Shown in pieces: positions 55,078 to 64,000 of a DNA stretch of 64,000 bases. Source of the stretch: Pelagihabitans pacificus (GTDB lineage: Bacteria > Bacteroidota > Bacteroidia > Flavobacteriales > Flavobacteriaceae); contig NZ_VIKU02000001.1 in assembly GCF_009371985.2 (NCBI RefSeq), forward strand, positions 930,001-994,000, read 5' to 3'. Every line of letters starts with the position of its first letter. Position 1 is the stretch's first letter. The translations under genes and the position numbers were made by a program. The notes beneath the pieces are model-generated. The model was not told the DNA's origin and searched no databases. It saw only the letters and a program-made list of their open reading frames with translations.

Positions 55078-55188
55078 TGATACTGATTTTGGTGGAAATT
55101 CGATCGTACTACAATTTACACATAATCCTTAAGACAGCGCTTCATGTGAATGGTTCCGGTTTTCTAAAAAAGTCGTCGGTCGAAAAGT

Positions 55189-55259
55189 ACCATTCGTCTA
55201 CAGCAAATTTCCATTCGTCTATACTTCTCCCCAAAATGAAACGTTCTGTTTGCATATTG
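55189..55259 (+). promoter_or_regulatory. LytTR-type operator site A and promoter of the H-NOX phosphorelay operon
   Basis: CCATTCGTCTA occurs twice, starting at 55190 and 55211, exactly 21 bp apart. At 41 bp after the second repeat lies GCATATTG (55252-55259), a weak -7 box. The ATG of the receiver gene follows 26 bp later. The same arrangement recurs at three other promoters (59709, 60053, 63181). Confidence 0.75.
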
Positions 55260-55284
55260 CAGATTAAATTGAAGCTTGGTATCT

Positions 55285-55686
55285 ATGAACATTTTACTGA
55301 TTGAGGACGACACGATCGAAACGATGAAATTGCAGCGAACCGTTTCCAAATTGCAATTGAGGCACGGTATACTCGAGGCGAAAAATGGGGAAGAGGCGCT
55401 ATCCCTTCTTGAGTCTACCAACGCTCTTCCGGATATTATCTTATTGGATCTGAACATGCCCCGAATGAGTGGCATCGAATTCCTCAAGATATTGAAGGCC
55501 GACCACAGGTTAAAATACCTGCCGACCATTGTTCTCACCACATCGGAAAACAGGGCCGACTTGTTGGAGTGTTACGAAATCGGTATTGCCGGGTACATCA
55601 TTAAACCCTTGAAATACGAAGACTACGAATTGAAGCTGCAAAAAGTACTGGCATACTGGGACATCAACGAATTGGTCAAAGCCTAA
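55285..55686 (+). CDS. Single-domain response regulator (receiver only)
   Basis: The 133-residue CheY-like protein begins MNILLIEDDTIETMKLQRTV. It has the phospho-acceptor Asp 55 in IILLDLNMPRMSG, the Thr in VLTTSENRA and the Lys in YIIKPL. A frame from a TTG at 55276 is less likely. With no output domain, it should pass phosphate from the downstream hybrid-less kinase to the separate Hpt protein. It is the first gene of the operon. A 77-bp gap to the H-NOX gene holds a possible weak internal promoter. Confidence 0.93.
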   Translation: MNILLIEDDTIETMKLQRTVSKLQLRHGILEAKNGEEALSLLESTNALPDIILLDLNMPRMSGIEFLKILKADHRLKYLPTIVLTTSENRADLLECYEIGIAGYIIKPLKYEDYELKLQKVLAYWDINELVKA

Positions 55687-55763
55687 CAAAAAAGTGCATT
55701 TCACAACAAAAATTATTCAGTACGTATTACTTTTCCTACTTTCGACTTCCAAATCTACCAAAT

Positions 55764-56306
55764 ATGAAAGGCATTGTCTTTACCGAGTTTATGGAAATGG
55801 TCGAGTCGAAATTCGGGCTCGAAATGGTCGATACCATTATTGAAAATGGCACGCTGCCTTCTGAAGGTATCTATACCTCGGTCGGAACGTATGATTTTAA
55901 TGAAATGGTGAGCCTAATTACCCAACTGAGCCATGAAACCCAGCTTCCGGCCGGAGACCTCATCTATTCCTTTGGACTATACCTATTCGACAGTTTAGGC
56001 AAAGCTCATCCAGAAGTAATCCAAAGCTATAATTCTCCTTTGGGGCTGCTCTATTCCATTGAAGACCATATACATGTGCACGTAAAAAAACTATATCCCG
56101 ATGCCGAACTGCCCACTTTCAAGATACTGGAAAAGACATATACGTCGATCTCGATGGTCTACAGTTCTTCGAGGGGTTTATACCGCTTGGCCCATGGGCT
56201 CATCGAAAAAACATTTGTACATTTTAATGGTACCGCAGACATTTCGTACGAGCTGTTGAAGGAAGACGGGACAGAAGTAAAATTTGATGTTGTGCAAAAT
56301 GGCTGA
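55764..56306 (+). CDS. H-NOX heme nitric oxide/oxygen sensor
   Basis: The 180-residue protein is a stand-alone H-NOX domain. The proximal heme ligand is His 104 in IEDHIHVHVKKLYPDAELP, which aligns with His 105 of soluble guanylate cyclase. The heme-propionate motif YxSxR is Tyr 133, Ser 135, Arg 137. Such proteins bind NO at ferrous heme and inhibit or activate a partner kinase. The kinase gene overlaps its 3' end by 8 bp, so the two proteins are made together. Confidence 0.96.
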   Translation: MKGIVFTEFMEMVESKFGLEMVDTIIENGTLPSEGIYTSVGTYDFNEMVSLITQLSHETQLPAGDLIYSFGLYLFDSLGKAHPEVIQSYNSPLGLLYSIEDHIHVHVKKLYPDAELPTFKILEKTYTSISMVYSSSRGLYRLAHGLIEKTFVHFNGTADISYELLKEDGTEVKFDVVQNG

Positions 56307-58653
56307 AAAAGAAGTGTTGCTTCTTAAAAAAGCCTTGGAACGACAGAAAAAAGCACGTATCCAAGCAGAAAAAATCCTGGAGGAAAAGTCTAAGGAACTG
56401 TATGACGTGACCCAACATCTCAAAGAAGCCAACAGTCAACTAGAGAATCTATTAAATGAAAAAACCTCGGAGCTCGACGGAGTGTTTATCAATATCATCG
56501 ACCCCTATGTAGTGATGGATTTGAAGTTCAATGTCATCAACATGAACCGATCGGCCAAAGAATTTTTGGGATATGACCACAACCGTGAACGACTGAATTT
56601 GAAACAGCTGGTGCACCCCGAGTACCTCGAATATACCTGGGAGTCGATTCAATCGTTATTGGAGGTTGGGACTCTTAAAAACTATCGTGCCAAAATATTC
56701 TCGAAAGACGGTACCGAAAAATGGGTCCAAATCAATAGTAGTTTAATTTATGATAAGGAGCGGAAACCCATCGCCGCACAAGGCATCATACGCGATATTA
56801 CAAATGAAACCGAGATACGACAGTTGTTGGACGAGCAAAAAAGACAACTCGATATCATTGTTGGTAATTCTCCCTTGGGCATCGCACTCACCATCAAAGG
56901 CAAAATCATCAAAGTGAACCCCGCCTTTGAGAACCTATTGGGTTATTCGGAATACGAATTAAAACGGTTGCATGTTAAAGATATTACGGTGCCGGAAGAA
57001 AATGAGGAAAGTATTCGACTCATCGATCAAATGAACAAGGGGCGACTCGACACCTTTTCCATCGTTAAAAAATACCTTCGAAAAGATGGGACTACCCTAT
57101 TCGCGAAGACTACTGTAAGTGCCGTCAAAAACCATAGAGGCGACGTCGATTATCAAGTTGCCCTTGTAGAAGACATAAGCAAAGAAAGGGAGGCAGAGGA
57201 ACGGACGAAGGCTTCAGAAAACAGATTGGCCACCCTGATTTCAAATCTACAGACCGGGGTGCTTCTGGAAGACGAGCATCGTACCATCTCATTGACCAAT
57301 CAAATGTTCTGCGACTTGTTCCACATTCCAGTAACCCCTGAAAGTCTCAAAGGAGCCGACTGTAGCAATGCCGCCGAGGACAACAAAAAGTATTTCAAGG
57401 ACCCGGAGAACTTTGTAAACCGGATCGAAACGATATTACAAAACCGTAAAGTAGTGCTGAAAGACGAATTGGAGATGATCGACGGGAGTATCCTGGAACG
57501 GGACTACATCCCCATTTTTAATCAGGATATCTACAAAGGACATCTATGGACCTACCAAGATGTGACCTTGCGAAAGAACTACAAACGCAATCTGGAAGCT
57601 CAAAAGGAAAAATACAGCAGCATTATCGCCAATATGAACTTAGGGCTCATCGAAGTAGACCTGGAAGACACCATACAATTGGTAAACCAAAGTTTCTGTA
57701 ACATGAGCGGTTTTGCCGAAACGGAGTTGGTAGGACAAAAAGCCTCGGAAGTGTTGAATCTTATAGAGCGGGATTTGCTGAAAGAAAAGAATGAAAAACG
57801 GTTACTGGGTGAGTCCGATTCCTATGAGGTACGTGTCGCCCATAAAGATGGCCGTACGAGGCATTGGCTCATAAGCGGGGCACCCCGTTACAATGAGGCA
57901 GGCCAGGCTGTTGGTTCGATTGGGATTCATCTCGACATTACGGATCAGAAGCAATTGGAATTACAAAAAGAGAAGCTGCTACGAGAGCTCGAGTCCAGTA
58001 ATCAAGGGCTCCAAGAGTATGCGCATATTGTATCGCACGACCTTAAATCGCCTTTGCGGTCGATCAGTGCCCTAGCCTCTTGGCTCGCAGAAGATTATAA
58101 AGAAGTACTCGACGATAACGGCCTTTTCAATCTTCAGCAGATGCAAGAAAAGGTCGAGAGCATGGATCGTCTCATCAGTGGTATCTTGAAATACTCGAGC
58201 ATCAGCCATGATACATCGGAACATACACAAGTAGACTTGAATGCGGTAGTCAATGAGATACGTGAAATTATTTTCATTCCAGAACATGTCAATGTGTTGA
58301 TTATGAATACGCTACCTGTCGTATTGGCCGATCGCACCAAAATATATCAATTATTTCAAAATTTGATCGGAAACGCCGTGGTACATATCGAAGCAGAACA
58401 AGGTCTTGTGGAAATCAGTTCCAGCGAAACAAGGACCCACTGGCAATTCAATATCAAGGACAACGGCATTGGCATCGCCCCCGAGTACCATGAAAAAATC
58501 TTCAAAATATTTCAATCGATCGGGAATGGCGAACGCTCGACAGGTATTGGCCTATCGATCGTTAAAAAAATCATCGACTTGTATGAGGGTTCTATTTGGT
58601 TGGATAGTACCATTGGCCAAGGAACCACTTTTCACTTTACCTTAAAAAAATAG
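56299..58653 (+). CDS. PAS-domain sensor histidine kinase associated with H-NOX
   Basis: The 784-residue soluble kinase starts with a coiled coil (about 1-60). Four PAS domains follow, beginning near FINIIDPYVVMD, IVGNSPLGIALT, LISNLQTGVLLE and IIANMNLGLIEV. A HisKA domain has the phospho-acceptor His in AHIVSHDLKSPLRSI (about residue 580), and a HATPase_c domain ends the protein (GNAVVHIEAE, DNGIGIAP, GIGLSIVKKI). It has no transmembrane segment and no receiver. The ATG at 56299 is chosen because earlier starts lie deeper in the H-NOX gene. Confidence 0.94.
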   Translation: MAEKEVLLLKKALERQKKARIQAEKILEEKSKELYDVTQHLKEANSQLENLLNEKTSELDGVFINIIDPYVVMDLKFNVINMNRSAKEFLGYDHNRERLNLKQLVHPEYLEYTWESIQSLLEVGTLKNYRAKIFSKDGTEKWVQINSSLIYDKERKPIAAQGIIRDITNETEIRQLLDEQKRQLDIIVGNSPLGIALTIKGKIIKVNPAFENLLGYSEYELKRLHVKDITVPEENEESIRLIDQMNKGRLDTFSIVKKYLRKDGTTLFAKTTVSAVKNHRGDVDYQVALVEDISKEREAEERTKASENRLATLISNLQTGVLLEDEHRTISLTNQMFCDLFHIPVTPESLKGADCSNAAEDNKKYFKDPENFVNRIETILQNRKVVLKDELEMIDGSILERDYIPIFNQDIYKGHLWTYQDVTLRKNYKRNLEAQKEKYSSIIANMNLGLIEVDLEDTIQLVNQSFCNMSGFAETELVGQKASEVLNLIERDLLKEKNEKRLLGESDSYEVRVAHKDGRTRHWLISGAPRYNEAGQAVGSIGIHLDITDQKQLELQKEKLLRELESSNQGLQEYAHIVSHDLKSPLRSISALASWLAEDYKEVLDDNGLFNLQQMQEKVESMDRLISGILKYSSISHDTSEHTQVDLNAVVNEIREIIFIPEHVNVLIMNTLPVVLADRTKIYQLFQNLIGNAVVHIEAEQGLVEISSSETRTHWQFNIKDNGIGIAPEYHEKIFKIFQSIGNGERSTGIGLSIVKKIIDLYEGSIWLDSTIGQGTTFHFTLKK

Positions 58654-58655
58654 CT

Positions 58656-58976
58656 ATGGAAGAATGTCCCAATTTATCCTACGTTCAAACCCTTGCCGCC
58701 GGTGATACGGATTTTGAGCAAAGATTCATTCAAATCATCAAAGAGGAATTTCCCGACGAGGCCACGCTGTATTTAAGCCATATTCGTCATGATGAACCTA
58801 GGGCCGCCGCGGAAATCGTGCACAAGCTTAAACACAAATTCAATATTCTGAGTATGGAAAAAGCCTATGCATTCGCTGTTGAATACGAAGAACAGCTACA
58901 AATTGGCGACATGAAACATGACCTTGATTTCAGAAAAATACTCGATACAATTACCCGCTACCTTAAAACCATTTGA
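58656..58976 (+). CDS. Hpt (histidine phosphotransfer) protein
   Basis: The 106-residue helical protein has the Hpt motif AEIVHKLKHKFNIL with the phospho-acceptor His 56. It starts 2 bp after the kinase stop. It should relay phosphate between the receiver-only protein and the LytTR regulator. Free Hpt proteins beside a kinase without receiver imply a four-step relay. Confidence 0.93.
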   Translation: MEECPNLSYVQTLAAGDTDFEQRFIQIIKEEFPDEATLYLSHIRHDEPRAAAEIVHKLKHKFNILSMEKAYAFAVEYEEQLQIGDMKHDLDFRKILDTITRYLKTI

Positions 58977-58978
58977 CC

Positions 58979-59683
58979 ATGAACTGTATCATTATAGACG
59001 ACGAGACGGCCGCCAGGGCGATTGTCTCCCAACTATGCACCCAAGTACCGGACCTCGACGTTATCGAGGAATTCGACAATGCCATCGATGCCATCAAATT
59101 TCTCAACCAACAGAACATCGATGTCGTGTTTCTCGACATTCATATGCCAGGTTTCACGGGGGTTGATTTTGTACAGACTTTAAAAAATCCTCCAAAAATC
59201 GTTCTGACCACTTCGGATACCAACTTTGCTATCGAAGCTTATGAGTACGAAGCAATCGTTGATTATCTCGTAAAACCGATTACCATGGAGCGCTTTGAAA
59301 AGTCGGTCCAAAAAATCAAGAATACGACCGTACGCCCTGCTTCCAAAACGGGGGAGGCTACCTCGGATACCGGGGAAGACCTCTACATCAATATTGACCG
59401 AAGGCTCATCAAACTAAAAATGAACGAGATTCAATTGATCGAGGCGAAAGGGGATTATATCGAAGTAAAAACCGATACGGAAAGCTATCGGGTACATAAT
59501 ACGCTGAAGAAAATCAAGGAAAAACTACCCGAAAAAACCTTCTTGCAGATTCATCGTTCCTATATCATCAATTTTACCAAGATTATCGATATTGAGGACA
59601 ACAGCGTCCTTATCGAAAAGAACGTAGTGCCCATTAGCCGTTCGAACCGGCCAGAGCTGATGCGGCGGTTGAACTTGCTATAG
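58979..59683 (+). CDS. LytTR-family response regulator
   Basis: The 234-residue protein has a receiver domain (MNCIIIDDETAARAIV, phospho-acceptor Asp 53 in VVFLDIHMPGF) and a LytTR DNA-binding domain (about 130-230, with LIEAKGDYIEVKTD and FLQIHRSYIINFTKI). LytTR proteins bind two direct repeats about 21 bp apart, next to the -35 region. The start at 58979, 2 bp after the Hpt stop, is preferred. Repeats of that spacing lie at four nearby promoters. Confidence 0.95.
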   Translation: MNCIIIDDETAARAIVSQLCTQVPDLDVIEEFDNAIDAIKFLNQQNIDVVFLDIHMPGFTGVDFVQTLKNPPKIVLTTSDTNFAIEAYEYEAIVDYLVKPITMERFEKSVQKIKNTTVRPASKTGEATSDTGEDLYINIDRRLIKLKMNEIQLIEAKGDYIEVKTDTESYRVHNTLKKIKEKLPEKTFLQIHRSYIINFTKIIDIEDNSVLIEKNVVPISRSNRPELMRRLNLL

Positions 59684-59708
59684 GCAATCGGTTCCCCCCT
59701 CTCATATT

Positions 59709-59779
59709 ACCATCGGTCTAAAGGAACGCGCCATTGACCGAAGCCGCTGACAAAAAGAAATGGAAGCTACATACATTTG
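59709..59779 (+). promoter_or_regulatory. LytTR-type operator site D and promoter of the 37-codon gene
   Basis: CCATCGGTCTA at 59710 and CCATTGACCGA at 59731 are 21 bp apart. TACATTTG at 59772-59779, an exact TAnnTTTG box, begins 41 bp after the second repeat. No -33 TTG is present at the usual distance, as expected for an activator-dependent promoter. Confidence 0.75.
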
Positions 59780-59821
59780 GATTAAATATTAAAAACAATG
59801 TTTCATCTAAATATAAAAGTT

Positions 59822-59935
59822 ATGAAAGCTTTATCCGTATTACATACTGCTTTGAAAACCTTGATTACCGGATTGATGGGTGTTTTGTCCTGCGTTGCCA
59901 TCGCTACCACCTTCTCGCTGGTCGGGTTGATCTAA
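59822..59935 (+). CDS. Small hydrophobic peptide (37 residues), unknown
   Basis: The frame begins MKALSVLHTALKTL and continues as one hydrophobic helix, VLSCVAIATTFSLVGLI, ending in TAA. It stands between a perfect -7 box with the operator pair (59709-59779) and an intrinsic terminator (59956-59983), so it is very probably transcribed as its own unit. The function is unknown; a membrane peptide or a regulatory transcript are both possible. Confidence 0.6.
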   Translation: MKALSVLHTALKTLITGLMGVLSCVAIATTFSLVGLI

Positions 59936-59955
59936 CATCTGTATACCCACTTATT

Positions 59956-59983
59956 AAAGAGCTCCGGAAAGGGGCTTTTTTTT
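59956..59983 (+). terminator. Intrinsic terminator of the 37-codon gene
   Basis: An AAAGAGCTCC/GGGGCTTT stem is followed by a run of T, 20 bp after the stop codon. Confidence 0.8.
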
Positions 59984-60052
59984 GTGTCAACTATTCCGTT
60001 TACAGGTCCAAAAGTGTTTTCAAAACCTTTTTTCATTTACCCCCCTATAGGT

Positions 60053-60123
60053 ACCATCAATCCATACTAAACCGCCATCCACCGAAAACGGTGCTAAATA
60101 CCTCATAATTCATTTGATATTTG
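60053..60123 (+). promoter_or_regulatory. LytTR-type operator site B and promoter of the secreted peptide gene
   Basis: CCATCAATCCA at 60054 and CCATCCACCGA at 60075 are 21 bp apart. GATATTTG at 60116-60123 (one mismatch to TAnnTTTG) begins 41 bp after the second repeat. The ATG follows 25 bp later. Confidence 0.75.
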
Positions 60124-60148
60124 TCTATAGAATTGAAACCTACTTATC

Positions 60149-60355
60149 ATGAAACGATTTTTACTTCTCATCACGACCCTGCTAAGCATGGCCCTGGCCA
60201 CAGCACAAAATCAGAGCTGCATACGTAACTATAGCTTGTACAGTAGCCAAACCGTGCACTTGGAAACTATACGCCCGCCCTACGGTCTTTATCTGTATCG
60301 CCTTCCCGACATACAGGGCGGTAAAACGTATCGCCGTAAACTGCTGAAACAATAA
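60149..60355 (+). CDS. Small secreted peptide (68 residues), unknown
   Basis: The product has a clear Sec signal peptide (MKRFLLLITTLLSMALATAQ, cleavage after TAQ). It leaves a mature part of about 48 residues that is basic and Tyr-rich (NYSLYSSQTVHLETIRPPYG, YRRKLLKQ). No family is recognised. It has its own promoter with the LytTR-type operator and a terminator, so it is a real transcription unit. Confidence 0.72.
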   Translation: MKRFLLLITTLLSMALATAQNQSCIRNYSLYSSQTVHLETIRPPYGLYLYRLPDIQGGKTYRRKLLKQ

Positions 60356-60375
60356 ATTAGATAGTTCCTCCCTTA

Positions 60376-60426
60376 AGACCACTCCCCCTTTTAAATTTGG
60401 GTTCGGGGGGAGGGTCTTTTTTTAGG
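60376..60426 (+). terminator. Intrinsic terminator of the secreted peptide gene
   Basis: A GACCACTCCCCC stem pairs with GGGGGGAGGGTC and is followed by seven T. Confidence 0.88.
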
Positions 60427-60437
60427 TTTCTTATGAA

Positions 60438-60468
60438 GATGGTCCCGTGAAATCGCGGGACCATTTTA
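60438..60468. terminator. Inverted repeat, possible second terminator
   Basis: ATGGTCCCG and CGGGACCAT form a strong stem with short T- or A-rich flanks on both sides. On the minus strand it would lie just after the gene remnant that ends at 60478. Confidence 0.55.
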
Positions 60469-60477
60469 TTTGGATAG

Positions 60478-60660
60478 TTAAATAAATTCTAAGGGTTTTG
60501 GAACTTCCGGTGTTCCTAGTTTGGCCACCCATGGGACCCAACCTCTTTTACGAAACCAATTGATGCCGCGAGGCTGCCCTTCCCAAAAAGGGACAAGGGC
60601 TCAATCTTTTTGAAACGAGGACCTAATTGTTCCAACGCTACAAGGTTCTTTGAAAATGTT
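60478..60660 (-). pseudogene. C-terminal remnant of an unknown protein
   Basis: Two minus-strand frames join into a coherent protein end: NLVALEQLGPRFKKIEPL in one frame and FWEGQPRGINWFRKRGW, then VAKLGTPEVPKPLEFI and TAA, in the next. One lost T in the CTTTTT run near 60585 explains the switch. A TGA precedes the first part and no start is seen. The family is not recognised. Confidence 0.5.
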
Positions 60661-61006
60661 CAACAGAATATTTAAACAAAAATCTTCTATTGTATATGAA
60701 GATTAAATTAACCGAAGGACAATGAAACTGGCCCTGTAGCGTCACAAATTGTTCCCTGATACAGATTCGGCATACCTATAGGGATAGCGATCTAATGCGA
60801 CTTAAGTAAGCAGAATATAAAATTATGCAAATCAGGTAGCATAGTACCTAGCTATTGAATCGGATGAATCTTGGACTGAATAATAATTAGATCGACTAAT
60901 TGGATGCGGTGGTAGCACCTTGCGGCGGAGCGTGCTTAAATTACCCGAAAATAGCTTCCGTCGAGAACGTAATTATCAACAAAAGATTTCGCTCAACATC
61001 ATAATC
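60661..61006. other. Intergenic region, nothing recognised
   Basis: No gene, hairpin with T-run or operator repeat is seen. It may be further decayed sequence of the gene whose end remains at 60478-60660. Confidence 0.4.
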
Positions 61007-63067
61007 CTACTTCCCTACCCTCCCATAGAACAAGGGCCTTTTTGTCAACAACCAATTCAACTGCACCCCTAACTCGGTGAACTCGAATCCAGCGGCGGTG
61101 GCCGAAGCGATATTGCTGTACTTACCATAAAGATTGCCGCTCAACCGCTTGCCGAATTGGTGTCGGAGTCCGGCCTCTGCACGGAAAATGGTGGTTTGGG
61201 GGTCTTCTTCTACTTGCTGCAACCCAGTCGCGACACTGGTCCAAAAACCGGTTTTTTTCGAAAGGTCGCCACGAAAGTCGGCAAAGAGCTCATATGCTTG
61301 GTACTCCTCCGGACTAAAATAAATGGAGGGTACCTGTTTTTCAAAACTGAGATATTGATAGTTAACGCCCGCTTTTAAAACCGGTTTATGCAATAAGTTG
61401 TAGTAAAGGGAAGTAAACAAAAGATTGCGGCTATTCTCATCGGTCTGCCGGGTATGCATCACTTGGGTATACCAGCCCAGGTTAAAGTTGGTGCCTAGGT
61501 TATAGTTGATTCCGTAGTGGTTCATGACGATCTCCCGTTCGATCAAATCGGCGTTGAAATTCTGCACTTCCCGTTGATAGCCCAACTCCAGGTTTTGTAA
61601 CTTGTAAGGCTTCAGCACTAATTTGGCGTCCAAAACGGGCTGTGTATATGCTTCTGTCATAAAGCGGGAATTGTTCAGCCCCACCACCGTCTTTAATCGG
61701 GTATTCGGAAAGGGGCTGTATTCGAAACCGGCCAAGAGTATGTGCGAATTTGCCTTGTTCGTGCTTATCGTATTCTCGGTGCTGCGGTATTGGTAGGATA
61801 AGGTAGTCCGAAATCGGGTCGCCCAGGGGATGTTCGCCGTTGTATTCGTAAAATAGACCACATTATTACCGTTGTCAAAGGTGTATCCGGCTTGTTGGCC
61901 TATCATCGGGGCATACCGTGCATTCATTTTTTCGATAAGGCCCATCGCATCCTTTTGATGGGGAAATACCTTTAAAGTTTGAAAAGCGGATTTGTAGGCC
62001 GAAACAATCCGGTCGGAAGCGAACAAGGCGTTCGCCTTGCCCAAATTACCATCGAAAGAGGTACTATCGTTCGCTAAAATGGCATCGTAACTCTGGAGAC
62101 TCGTTTTAAAATCCCCCGTGTACATGCCCAAAGTCGCTCTTAAGGCCAAGACCCAGTTACGTCCGGAATGGGTGACAGACAGGCTATCGATCTGCTGCCG
62201 TGCCTTGCCGAACTTGCGGTTCCATATCAAGGCCTGCACATGGCGTTCATAGGTTCGCTCGATAAGCTCGGTGTCTTTGAAGGTTCTTACTTTTATTTTC
62301 GCACTTTCGGCCACCCGCTGGGCTTCCCTATTGTGCGCCCCGATATGTTCCGCAAGGGCGATACCGTTCAAAGCGGTAATCGAATCCTTTGGCGTAGTGG
62401 CATAACGCCGGTAGGCAGCTTTGGCACTGTCCGTTTCCTTTGTGATCAAATATACATTGGCCAAGTTGAGCAACGCATCCTTATCTTCGGGAAAATCCGT
62501 AAAGATTTCCTTCAACATTTCCTTTCCCCGAGGGTAGTCTTGCTTGTTCACAAAAGTGTTCGCATATCCAAGACGTATGTACTTTCGGGAGACTTTGGCG
62601 CTTTCGTTCCCGGGCTGTAGTGCCAACGCCTTCTCGATCCACTCTAGGGCCACTGTGTACTCTTTTAGGTTGCCCAAGGTATTGGCATAGCCCAACAACG
62701 CCCCGAAATTCTCTGGATACCGGGCTACCAACTCTGCATAAAGGGGCTTGGCCTTATCGTATTCCCCTCCCCATAGGAACGATTCGTTGTAATTGATCCG
62801 TATCTCAAAATCATCGGGATAGGTTTTCAGAAGGCCGGCGAACAAACTCGTGGCCTTTTGGGGCTCACCACTAAGCCCTACTGCCCGACCATAACAGATT
62901 TGGGCGGTCTTGTTATCGGGGTCAGATCGTAGGTACGTGCCAAAAAAAGATTCGGCCTGTTCAAAACGTCCCTTTTCCAAAAGGGTAAAGCCATTCTCCA
63001 AAGGGGCCTGCGCCGAAGTAAAAAGCGAGGACATCAATAAGGTGTAAACAAGTGCTGTTCGTAACAT
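61007..63067 (-). CDS. TPR protein with C-terminal outer-membrane beta-barrel (YaiO-like)
   Basis: The 686-residue protein has a signal peptide (cleavage after TSAQA). About eight tetratricopeptide repeats cover residues 25-390, and a YaiO-like beta-barrel follows to the C-terminus (YTFDNGNNVVYFTNTTANIPW onward, ending LNWLLTKRPLFYGRVGK). The TPR-plus-barrel layout is that of exopolysaccharide export porins such as PgaA or BcsC. It is divergent from the STAS/flippase unit, which supports a role in polysaccharide export. Confidence 0.88.
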   Translation of the reverse strand: MLRTALVYTLLMSSLFTSAQAPLENGFTLLEKGRFEQAESFFGTYLRSDPDNKTAQICYGRAVGLSGEPQKATSLFAGLLKTYPDDFEIRINYNESFLWGGEYDKAKPLYAELVARYPENFGALLGYANTLGNLKEYTVALEWIEKALALQPGNESAKVSRKYIRLGYANTFVNKQDYPRGKEMLKEIFTDFPEDKDALLNLANVYLITKETDSAKAAYRRYATTPKDSITALNGIALAEHIGAHNREAQRVAESAKIKVRTFKDTELIERTYERHVQALIWNRKFGKARQQIDSLSVTHSGRNWVLALRATLGMYTGDFKTSLQSYDAILANDSTSFDGNLGKANALFASDRIVSAYKSAFQTLKVFPHQKDAMGLIEKMNARYAPMIGQQAGYTFDNGNNVVYFTNTTANIPWATRFRTTLSYQYRSTENTISTNKANSHILLAGFEYSPFPNTRLKTVVGLNNSRFMTEAYTQPVLDAKLVLKPYKLQNLELGYQREVQNFNADLIEREIVMNHYGINYNLGTNFNLGWYTQVMHTRQTDENSRNLLFTSLYYNLLHKPVLKAGVNYQYLSFEKQVPSIYFSPEEYQAYELFADFRGDLSKKTGFWTSVATGLQQVEEDPQTTIFRAEAGLRHQFGKRLSGNLYGKYSNIASATAAGFEFTELGVQLNWLLTKRPLFYGRVGK

Positions 63068-63180
63068 CGGTCAAGTAGGTTTTGCTACGGGAAAAACAGA
63101 AAAAAAGAACCTGGTTTGCCCGTATGATTTAGGTGATATAAAGGTACGGCAGGCCTTCCCGCACCGGAAGTGTGAAATCT

Positions 63181-63251
63181 ACCATTGACCTACAGTAAAT
63201 CGCCATCCGTCGAAATCCATCCCAATAGAGCGTCAAATCGGTGGATATTTG
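63181..63251 (+). promoter_or_regulatory. LytTR-type operator site C and promoter of the STAS/flippase unit
   Basis: CCATTGACCTA at 63182 and CCATCCGTCGA at 63203 are 21 bp apart. GATATTTG at 63244-63251 begins 41 bp after the second repeat, as at site B. The ATG of the STAS gene is 43 bp downstream. Confidence 0.75.
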
Positions 63252-63294: not shown

Positions 63295-63597
63295 ATGGCT
63301 TTACAAATCACAGAAACCCATGGCATGTTCCAAGTACTGGGTTCGCTAAGTGCCGAGACCTCGCGCACCTTGCACTCGCACATCCTACGATACCTGCACG
63401 AACGCAGCCAAATCATCCTCAACCTGGAAAAAATTAAGGATATGGACGCTTCTGCCGCCTATATGCTACAGCGGTTGTATCGCTATGCCATGCGCAACAA
63501 CTGCATTCTCATAATCATCGGGCAGGAAAACGAACGTATTCTTCCAGCGATGCACAAAACACGAACCTCTTATATCTTGAGCCATGACCGTGTTTAA
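63295..63597 (+). CDS. STAS-domain protein
   Basis: The 100-residue protein is a single STAS domain (LQITETHGMFQVLGSLSAETS, then IILNLEKIKDMDASAAYMLQRLYR, where the Ser of DAS is in the usual phospho-site loop). STAS proteins work as anti-anti-sigma or partner-binding switches. It overlaps the flippase gene by 14 bp. No anti-sigma kinase is visible in the window. Confidence 0.85.
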   Translation: MALQITETHGMFQVLGSLSAETSRTLHSHILRYLHERSQIILNLEKIKDMDASAAYMLQRLYRYAMRNNCILIIIGQENERILPAMHKTRTSYILSHDRV

Positions 63598-64000
63598 TAT
63601 CGCACAAAAAAAACTGTCGCCCGAACGCTTGTTCATGGGGAGTGTACTGTTGGTGAACGGGGGCAACTATCTGTACAACCTGGTCCTGGGTCGCCTTTTG
63701 GGACCTGAAGCCTTTGCCGATGCCGCTTTGATGGTTACATTATTACTGGTACTTTCCTTTGTCGGGATGACCTTTCAATTGACCACCGCCAAATTTGCCG
63801 TATTGTTCTCACATGATCAATGGCAGGCCTTTCAGCAAATCATGTACCGGTATGCGCTGATCATTGGTTGTTTTGCGGGTGCTTTGTTGGTCTTTTTTGC
63901 GGGCGAACTGCAAGTCGTGTTCAACACCGCTACCCCCAGCATGTTCATCATTTTCGGCCTGGGTGTGCCATTATACTTTTTGATGTCGGTCAACAGGGGT
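63584..64000 (+). CDS. Polysaccharide flippase (Wzx/MOP superfamily), 3' partial
   Basis: From the ATG at 63584 the frame stays open to the window end (139 codons). It begins MTVFNIAQKKLSPERLF, and the membrane part GSVLLVNGGNYLYNLVLGRLLGPEAFADAAL is the typical first helix and amphipathic loop of oligosaccharide flippases. At least three further hydrophobic segments follow. It moves lipid-linked or polysaccharide intermediates across the inner membrane. Downstream polysaccharide genes are expected outside the window. Confidence 0.88.
   Translation, partial: MTVFNIAQKKLSPERLFMGSVLLVNGGNYLYNLVLGRLLGPEAFADAALMVTLLLVLSFVGMTFQLTTAKFAVLFSHDQWQAFQQIMYRYALIIGCFAGALLVFFAGELQVVFNTATPSMFIIFGLGVPLYFLMSVNRG

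Follow-up and report, generated by a model that had tools for sequence, protein, structure and literature searches.

A 21-bp-period operator linked to a LytTR regulator at an H-NOX locus of Pelagihabitans pacificus and its relatives

The locus and its operator arrays

The stretch analysed here, referred to as the window, is 64,000 nt of Pelagihabitans pacificus (family Flavobacteriaceae; contig NZ_VIKU02000001.1, positions 930,001–994,000). Toward its 3′ end it carries genes for a receiver (REC) protein, a haem nitric oxide-binding (H-NOX) sensor, a histidine kinase (HK), a histidine phosphotransfer (Hpt)-like protein and a LytTR response regulator, and four arrays of short direct repeats are situated 5′ of this operon and of three further open reading frames (ORFs). 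Very probably a phosphorelay ends here in a LytTR activator that controls its own operon and a wider regulon, which would comprise exopolysaccharide genes, secreted proteins and a microprotein of 36–37 amino acids (aa). The features, numbered from the first nucleotide of the window, are as follows.

55168–55188, + strand: weak third upstream half-site of array 1 (matrix 15.4 bits, 21 bp upstream of the main pair)
55189–55221, + strand: operator array 1, 5′ of the REC-H-NOX-HK-Hpt-LytTR operon (leave-one-out matrix, genome scan)
55252–55259, + strand: −7-like box GCATATTG of array 1, 41 bp after the second repeat
55285–55686, + strand: single-domain REC protein (Pfam PF00072, 75 bits)
55764–56306, + strand: H-NOX sensor (Pfam PF07700, HNOB, 123 bits)
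56299–58653, + strand: PAS-rich histidine kinase (PAS, HisKA and HATPase_c matches, scanned from 56302)
58656–58976, + strand: Hpt-like phosphotransfer protein (weak Hpt match of 15.6 bits, under the 24.6 cut-off)
58979–59683, + strand: LytTR response regulator, the proposed operator-binding protein (LytTR PF04397, 71 bits; Response_reg PF00072, 69 bits)
59709–59741, + strand: operator array 2 (leave-one-out matrix, genome scan)
59772–59779, + strand: −7 box TACATTTG of array 2, 41 bp after the second repeat
59822–59935, + strand: hydrophobic microprotein of 37 aa (family in 17 loci; probably membrane-spanning, by eye)
60053–60085, + strand: operator array 3 (leave-one-out matrix, genome scan)
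60116–60123, + strand: −7 box GATATTTG of array 3, 41 bp after the second repeat
60149–60355, + strand: ORF of 68 aa with a signal-peptide-like start by eye, not conserved
61007–63067, − strand: TPR protein, perhaps an outer-membrane barrel like PgaA (TPR families; weak PgaA match of 53.6 bits, below cut-off)
63181–63213, + strand: operator array 4 (leave-one-out matrix, genome scan)
63244–63251, + strand: −7 box GATATTTG of array 4, 41 bp after the second repeat
63295–63597, + strand: STAS-domain protein (PF01740, 33.9 bits)
63584–64000, + strand: polysaccharide flippase, running past the window end (Polysacc_synt_3, 43.3 bits)

The first-pass annotation, made from the letters of the window, had reported four CCAT repeat pairs (55190/55211, 59710/59731, 60054/60075 and 63182/63203) with a period of exactly 21 bp, a box starting exactly 41 bp past the second repeat of each (55252, 59772, 60116 and 63244), and a LytTR gene ending 26 bp before array 2. 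All of these positions are correct, and the observation of four operators with a fixed geometry is confirmed. Its naming of the box as the −7 element fits sites 2–4, which carry 5–6 of the six fixed letters of TAnnTTTG, and fits less well at site 1, where GCATATTG carries 3 of the six. When each site in turn is left out of the matrix, the missing site is recovered at 24.1–34.0 bits and the next best score in the window is 8.9–11.9 bits. A third half-site 21 bp upstream is common in the arrays generally, and a weak one is found at 55168 for array 1.

A scan of the genome (4.56 Mb in 22 contigs, up to three mismatches) gives five matches versus one in the reversed control, and all five lie in this one island, on the + strand. 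The fifth array lies at 64998 on the window scale, 1 kb past the window end and 5′ of a glycosyltransferase gene; TTTG is present at the same box distance, as predicted for a sequence not previously seen. A sixth, weaker array (L006:18443/18464; L numbers denote loci and G numbers genomes) precedes a gene for a REC-glycosyltransferase fusion. The boxes of all six arrays share an offset of 63, and five of the six fit 5–6 of the TAnnTTTG letters. With a looser pattern, also with up to three mismatches, there are 16 matches versus 5 in the control, six of them in the island and ten scattered with 2–3 mismatches. A continuation of the arrays into the next 20 kb (L007) was considered and is not supported, as that stretch has no site above 18 bits.

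Both domains of the LytTR protein (PF00072 and PF04397) score above their Pfam cut-offs, which makes it a response regulator of the LytTR class. Its best NCBIfam match is BtsR, but the 133 bits fall below the cut-off of 246 for that equivalog (NF008677), and among the best 60 of its 157 PDB matches no entry is named as a LytTR-DNA complex. The H-NOX protein matches PDB entries 6bde and 6bdd at 201 and 198 bits (17 PDB sequences at E ≤ 0.001), and in this putative haem-binding, NO-responsive protein a Y-S-S-S-R segment fits the YxSxR haem motif. Relatives of the Hpt-like protein are found in 70 of the 81 loci described below. The TPR protein at 61007–63067 is targeted by no array.

Conservation and promoter geometry in relatives

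H-NOX (PF07700) is found in 78 of 199 genomes sampled from the family Flavobacteriaceae. The loci compared are 80 fetched H-NOX neighbourhoods together with that of the window (81 loci, from 3 kb upstream to 17 kb downstream, some clipped by contig ends). An iterated matrix with a match threshold of at least 14 bits gives 347 matches in 73 of the 81 loci, of which 335 are on the H-NOX strand; the matrix was trained on the same loci and these counts are therefore descriptive. Above 10 bits there are 402 matches in the 81 loci versus 10 in a Markov control of equal size. A group of 113 matches is situated 400–700 bp before H-NOX, i.e. before the REC gene, and none is found from −400 to +2000. 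After merging, 257 arrays remain, 167 with two and 90 with three half-sites; the half-site consensus is CCATTCgTC[T/G]ACA with a 21-bp period. Seven of the 257 lie mostly within ORFs; the ORFs counted, of at least 130 aa, cover 81.7% of the loci. LytTR sites have been described as two repeats of 9–11 nt, 11–13 nt apart (PMC4847170), and the 257 arrays, with half-sites of 9–13 nt and the 21-bp period, display a layout of this type.

A strict form of the pattern is present in 47 of the 199 genomes, that is in 43 of the 78 H-NOX-positive and 4 of the 121 H-NOX-negative ones, versus 2 genomes for the reversed control; as a spacing control, the same pattern with a 22-bp period is found in 6 of the 199. 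The four H-NOX-negative genomes are G005, G115, G129 and G194, the last of which looks like chance. A loose pattern that matched 99 of the 199 genomes was polluted by heptamer repeats and was replaced by the strict one.

A held-out set was obtained with a profile of 11 LytTR orthologues. The best 80 loci among the matches listed were kept and 10 identical to training loci were dropped, leaving 70. Since only the best 80 were kept, the held-out loci are close relatives (Maribacter, Arenibacter, Cellulophaga, Zobellia, Allomuricauda, Winogradskyella and others), and many genera are shared with the training set. Within this set, 65 of the 70 loci show at least one array of at least 18 bits, and an array lies within 400 bp 5′ of REC in 64 of the 66 loci that show REC. 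All 185 arrays share the strand of LytTR, and the box is present in 159 of them. The loci with no array are L213, L235 and L271, which are short contigs, together with L268 and L272. A matrix scan of relatives was the comparison that the first-pass annotation proposed, and its outcome is clearly favourable: matches cluster at promoters beside LytTR loci. Geometry, conservation and linkage can be read directly from these sequences.

The box was scored as at least 5 of the 6 fixed letters of TAnnTTTG at 60–66 or 81–87 bases after the first A of the last pair. It is found at this offset in 216 of the 257 arrays, versus 22–51 at nine shifted positions. TAnnTTTG is the flavobacterial sigma-A box, located at −12 to −5 (PMC9723704), and the arrays match this Bacteroidota box within one mismatch in the same 216 cases and in 5 of the 6 arrays of this genome, array 1 being the exception. 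A box at −12 to −5 would put the half-sites at about −41 to −53 and −62 to −74, and the third at −83 to −95. The stretch between operator and box is nearly uninformative (0.00–0.18 bits per position from −27 to −1, aligned on the box). No −33 element is conserved, in keeping with the lack of a good one at the four sites first described; TTG at 18–26 bases before the box occurs 0–4 times per position in the 216 arrays, with 2.8 expected. Arrays upstream of the −7 box, at a fixed distance from it and with no conserved −33 element, suggest the layout of an activator-dependent promoter.

Genes behind the arrays

The first ORF behind the 257 arrays belongs to a REC cluster for 92 arrays in 71 loci (12 of these REC proteins exceed 250 aa), to a glycosyltransferase cluster (Glycos_transf_1) for 27, to a STAS cluster for 25 arrays in 25 loci, to a flippase cluster for 10 and to a CAP-domain cluster for 5, with others fewer. 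Behind 23 arrays it encodes a protein of median 863 aa, a representative of which carries DUF6923 and a secretion-system sorting tail. Twenty of the 257 arrays have no ORF by the rule used, and 33 targets are singletons. The polysaccharide targets proposed at first pass are borne out, with arrays preceding STAS/flippase, glycosyltransferase and REC-glycosyltransferase genes, and the array upstream of the REC-H-NOX-HK-Hpt-LytTR operon is conserved in relatives, which is consistent with the predicted autoregulation. The fusion gene in L006 (18601–19743) encodes a receiver joined to a family 2 glycosyltransferase, and similar long REC proteins are found behind arrays elsewhere.

Two peptide genes had also been proposed as targets. 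The first is a conserved microprotein; the second has no relative in the 81 loci. A profile of six seeds, run over short ORFs of 178 loci (some genomes are represented twice), finds a hydrophobic microprotein of 36–37 aa directly behind LytTR in 17 of them, with the ATG 107–113 bp after the array start. These 17 include the six seeds, two from the same genome and two identical peptides. They are found, for example, at 59822–59935 of the window, L197:10847, L207:10891 and L212:10838, and the arrays at the microprotein loci L204, L231 and L262 score weakly. Differences at the three codon positions are 257/148/708 in the 36-aa group (457 synonymous vs 103 non-synonymous) and 370/216/487 in the 37-aa group (168 vs 114), values that point to purifying selection on the microprotein in the 36-aa group and less clearly in the 37-aa group. 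The two members scanned show no Pfam family.

Another small peptide occupies the microprotein slot in L128 (at 8883 of the oriented stretch), L258:10833, L261:10833, L264:10839 and L266:8017. By eye it reads MKANLLYIL...IRLIGVL..., is 38–39 aa in length, and comes from four Zobellia and G001; the microprotein profile does not claim it (E 0.1–7.5).

The 68-aa ORF at 60149–60355 shows no family, and a search of the 81 loci finds only itself. In the relatives L204, L207, L212 and L217 a protein of 820–835 aa stands in its place, of which the ORF is perhaps a remnant or a replacement.

The binding protein, the relay and nitric oxide

In 80 loci, a LytTR gene and an upstream array are both present in 66 and both missing in 7, with LytTR only in 3 and the array only in 4. 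What we regard as the best evidence for LytTR as the probable operator partner comes from natural separations of LytTR and H-NOX. G005 and G115 lack H-NOX and keep REC, kinase, Hpt, LytTR and arrays. In G129, which has no H-NOX either, Hpt and LytTR are the only relay genes beside the arrays. The H-NOX loci of G011 and G172 contain neither LytTR nor arrays, and in both genomes a separate LytTR locus carries arrays and a REC gene. Scored at a threshold of 16 bits, 17 further H-NOX loci show the same association with one exception: L277–L280 (genus g127) combine a distant H-NOX (32–35 bits) with arrays and a LytTR of 144–151 bits, a LytTR orthologue and an array are also found together in L288, which belongs to another family, and 11 of the 12 loci with no LytTR orthologue have no array either (L284 carries a distant LytTR of 100 bits). 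Because the operator stays beside LytTR even in genomes whose H-NOX is absent, divergent or encoded at another place, it is assigned to LytTR and not to H-NOX. The initial proposal of a LytTR regulon of the H-NOX relay thus stands as regards a LytTR operator, its rigid geometry and its conservation, and is modified in that the operator tracks LytTR and not H-NOX. The best reading is that the arrays are the operator of the LytTR protein at 58979–59683, binding being predicted by association.

The relay and arrays are the same in L277–L280, all of one genus, and the divergent H-NOX of these loci gives the impression of a swapped sensor. In L075 (genome G179) the last 39 LytTR residues still align and the array remains; this is perhaps a decaying copy.

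Several observations weigh against the reading of the arrays as activating operators of this LytTR protein. The LytTR/array association has a Fisher p of 1e-5, a value that overstates independence since the loci are related. LytTR is found with no upstream array in L130 and L141, which have arrays elsewhere in the locus, and in L114, where the LytTR is distant (90 bits); an array is found with no LytTR in L090 and L118, which are short contigs, in L075 with its 39-residue remnant, and in L086, and L286 likewise has arrays with no LytTR in view. L272 of the held-out set, with LytTR, REC and H-NOX present and no array, is a true exception. At the promoter, a good box at the fixed distance is missing from 41 of the 257 arrays, including array 1 of the window, which has 3 of the six fixed letters, and TTG is slightly raised at 14–17 bases before the box (5–8 in 216 vs 2.8 expected). 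Activation rather than repression is something we infer from position only. The matrix does not score the E. coli BtsR and YpdB oligonucleotides above shuffles, with the fitting BtsR frame overrunning its oligonucleotide; the sites are therefore taken as related in layout and not in full sequence.

The possibility that another regulator linked to the locus binds the repeats is improbable. Other candidates would be the further LytTR domains of the genome, 22 in all, or an unlinked factor, and four loci show an array with no LytTR gene in view; however, the arrays follow LytTR when it is split from H-NOX, they are missing from 11 of the 12 further H-NOX loci that lack the orthologue, the half-site resembles the box of another LytTR regulator, AlgR, and a matrix match among the genome's 22 LytTR loci, each of some 3.3 kb, is found only at the island (26.2 bits), the other 21 scoring 5.9 bits or less. 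That LytTR binds the arrays and represses, with nitric oxide (NO) or phosphorylation relieving the repression, is rated a shade lower still. HnoC of Shewanella is a repressor of the hno regulon whose effect phosphorylation relieves (PMC8738867), but the arrays here lie upstream of the −7 box and not over it, at a fixed distance and with no conserved −33 element. Chance or a dispersed REP-like element can practically be set aside: short direct repeats do arise by chance, and in some genomes the loose pattern picked up heptamer repeats, but the leave-one-out recovery, the genome scan, the strand bias, the intergenic position, the box distance and the held-out conservation all contradict it.

With LytTR as the putative activator, the relay may be ordered as follows. 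H-NOX, by appearance an exchangeable input, would tune the PAS kinase, from which phosphate would pass to the single REC protein, to Hpt and to the receiver of LytTR. Phosphorylated LytTR would bind the half-sites on one face of the DNA, from about −41 to −74 (to −95 with a third), and substitute for the missing −33 contact. It would activate its own operon, the 37-aa microprotein, secreted and surface proteins, and the exopolysaccharide genes (STAS, flippase, glycosyltransferase and the REC-glycosyltransferase fusion). As a wider proposal, which we favour by a small degree, marine Flavobacteriaceae would share a LytTR regulon with an exchangeable sensor: a single relay and a single rigid operator of two or three boxes would persist across many genera, with H-NOX, a divergent H-NOX or none as input, driving surface polysaccharide genes and a microprotein that possibly modulates export or the kinase.

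The least certain step is the sign of NO, which would lower the output of the regulon. NO-bound H-NOX inhibits the kinase in Vibrio cholerae and Shewanella oneidensis (PMC8738867), and a lowered regulon is therefore expected by analogy as the likelier outcome. Activation by NO, the sign given in the first-pass annotation, is the less likely alternative, though one of some substance. Sequence does not tell the sign of H-NOX control. NO on balance increases biofilm in V. cholerae and S. oneidensis, because the kinase of these two feeds a c-di-GMP-degrading enzyme, and the species reviewed vary in this net outcome (PMC8738867). In Vibrio fischeri the syp biofilm locus is promoted by a kinase under H-NOX regulation, and signalling through H-NOX is inhibitory to biofilm (PMC8738867), which argues against activation by NO.

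The syp locus serves exopolysaccharide production and includes a gene for a STAS protein, a likeness to the targets here, whereas its relay and regulator family are different ones, and we know of no operator shared between it and the arrays. The hno pathway of S. oneidensis and V. cholerae likewise has H-NOX beside a kinase that feeds response regulators, with transcriptional feedback via HnoC in S. oneidensis; its outputs are c-di-GMP enzymes, HnoC or LuxU (PMC8738867), whereas the relay of the window ends in a LytTR regulator and its proposed operator regulon. The closest solved H-NOX, together with 6bde, is that of Kordia algicida (Ka; 6BDD in PMC7356049), an article on simulation of the Ka sensor in whose available text LytTR does not occur. 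The box of AlgR, the alginate LytTR regulator of Pseudomonas aeruginosa, is CCGTTCGTC and agrees with the half-site CCATTCGTC at 8 of 9 positions, and AlgR too controls an exopolysaccharide (PMC4064291). The algD boxes, however, are at −470, −394 and −45 with the last in the opposite orientation, whereas here two or three repeats stand in line with a 21-bp period and one fixed distance to the −7 box; the portions of that source covering AlgR describe no H-NOX link (PMC4064291).

No description of an H-NOX output in the family, of H-NOX together with LytTR, or of LytTR operators in the phylum was found in the available text of the open-access literature, supplements aside (including PMC6769237, PMC5395568 and PMC7356049); as the search covered open access only, subscription papers may exist. 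The parts are of known kinds, and the combination and the operator appear to be new. A fixed-geometry operator would give the H-NOX systems of the family a readable output, with regulons that can be listed from sequence, and would supply an operator rule for one LytTR group of the phylum and a predicted induction signal for a conserved microprotein. NO control of surface polysaccharide becomes testable, the promoter being a ready reporter.

Other LytTR operators bear comparison. BtsR (YehT) and YpdB of E. coli differ from the regulator here in having LytS-like partner kinases. They too are LytTR regulators, and YpdB binds a direct repeat (PMC4847170). In the printed yjiY oligonucleotide, ACC occurs at 29 and 50 (counted from 0), 21 bp apart. 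Within the genome of the window, an earlier simple pattern gave 4 matches in 3 loci near the 22 LytTR genes; it would miss array 2 and was superseded by the matrix. A 21-bp-spaced pair, ACCATTCATACA / ACCATTTATACA, is found on the opposite strand at L165:852 (G000:C17), beside the LytTR gene at 181055. It scores low with the island matrix and is perhaps the own operator of that LytTR gene.

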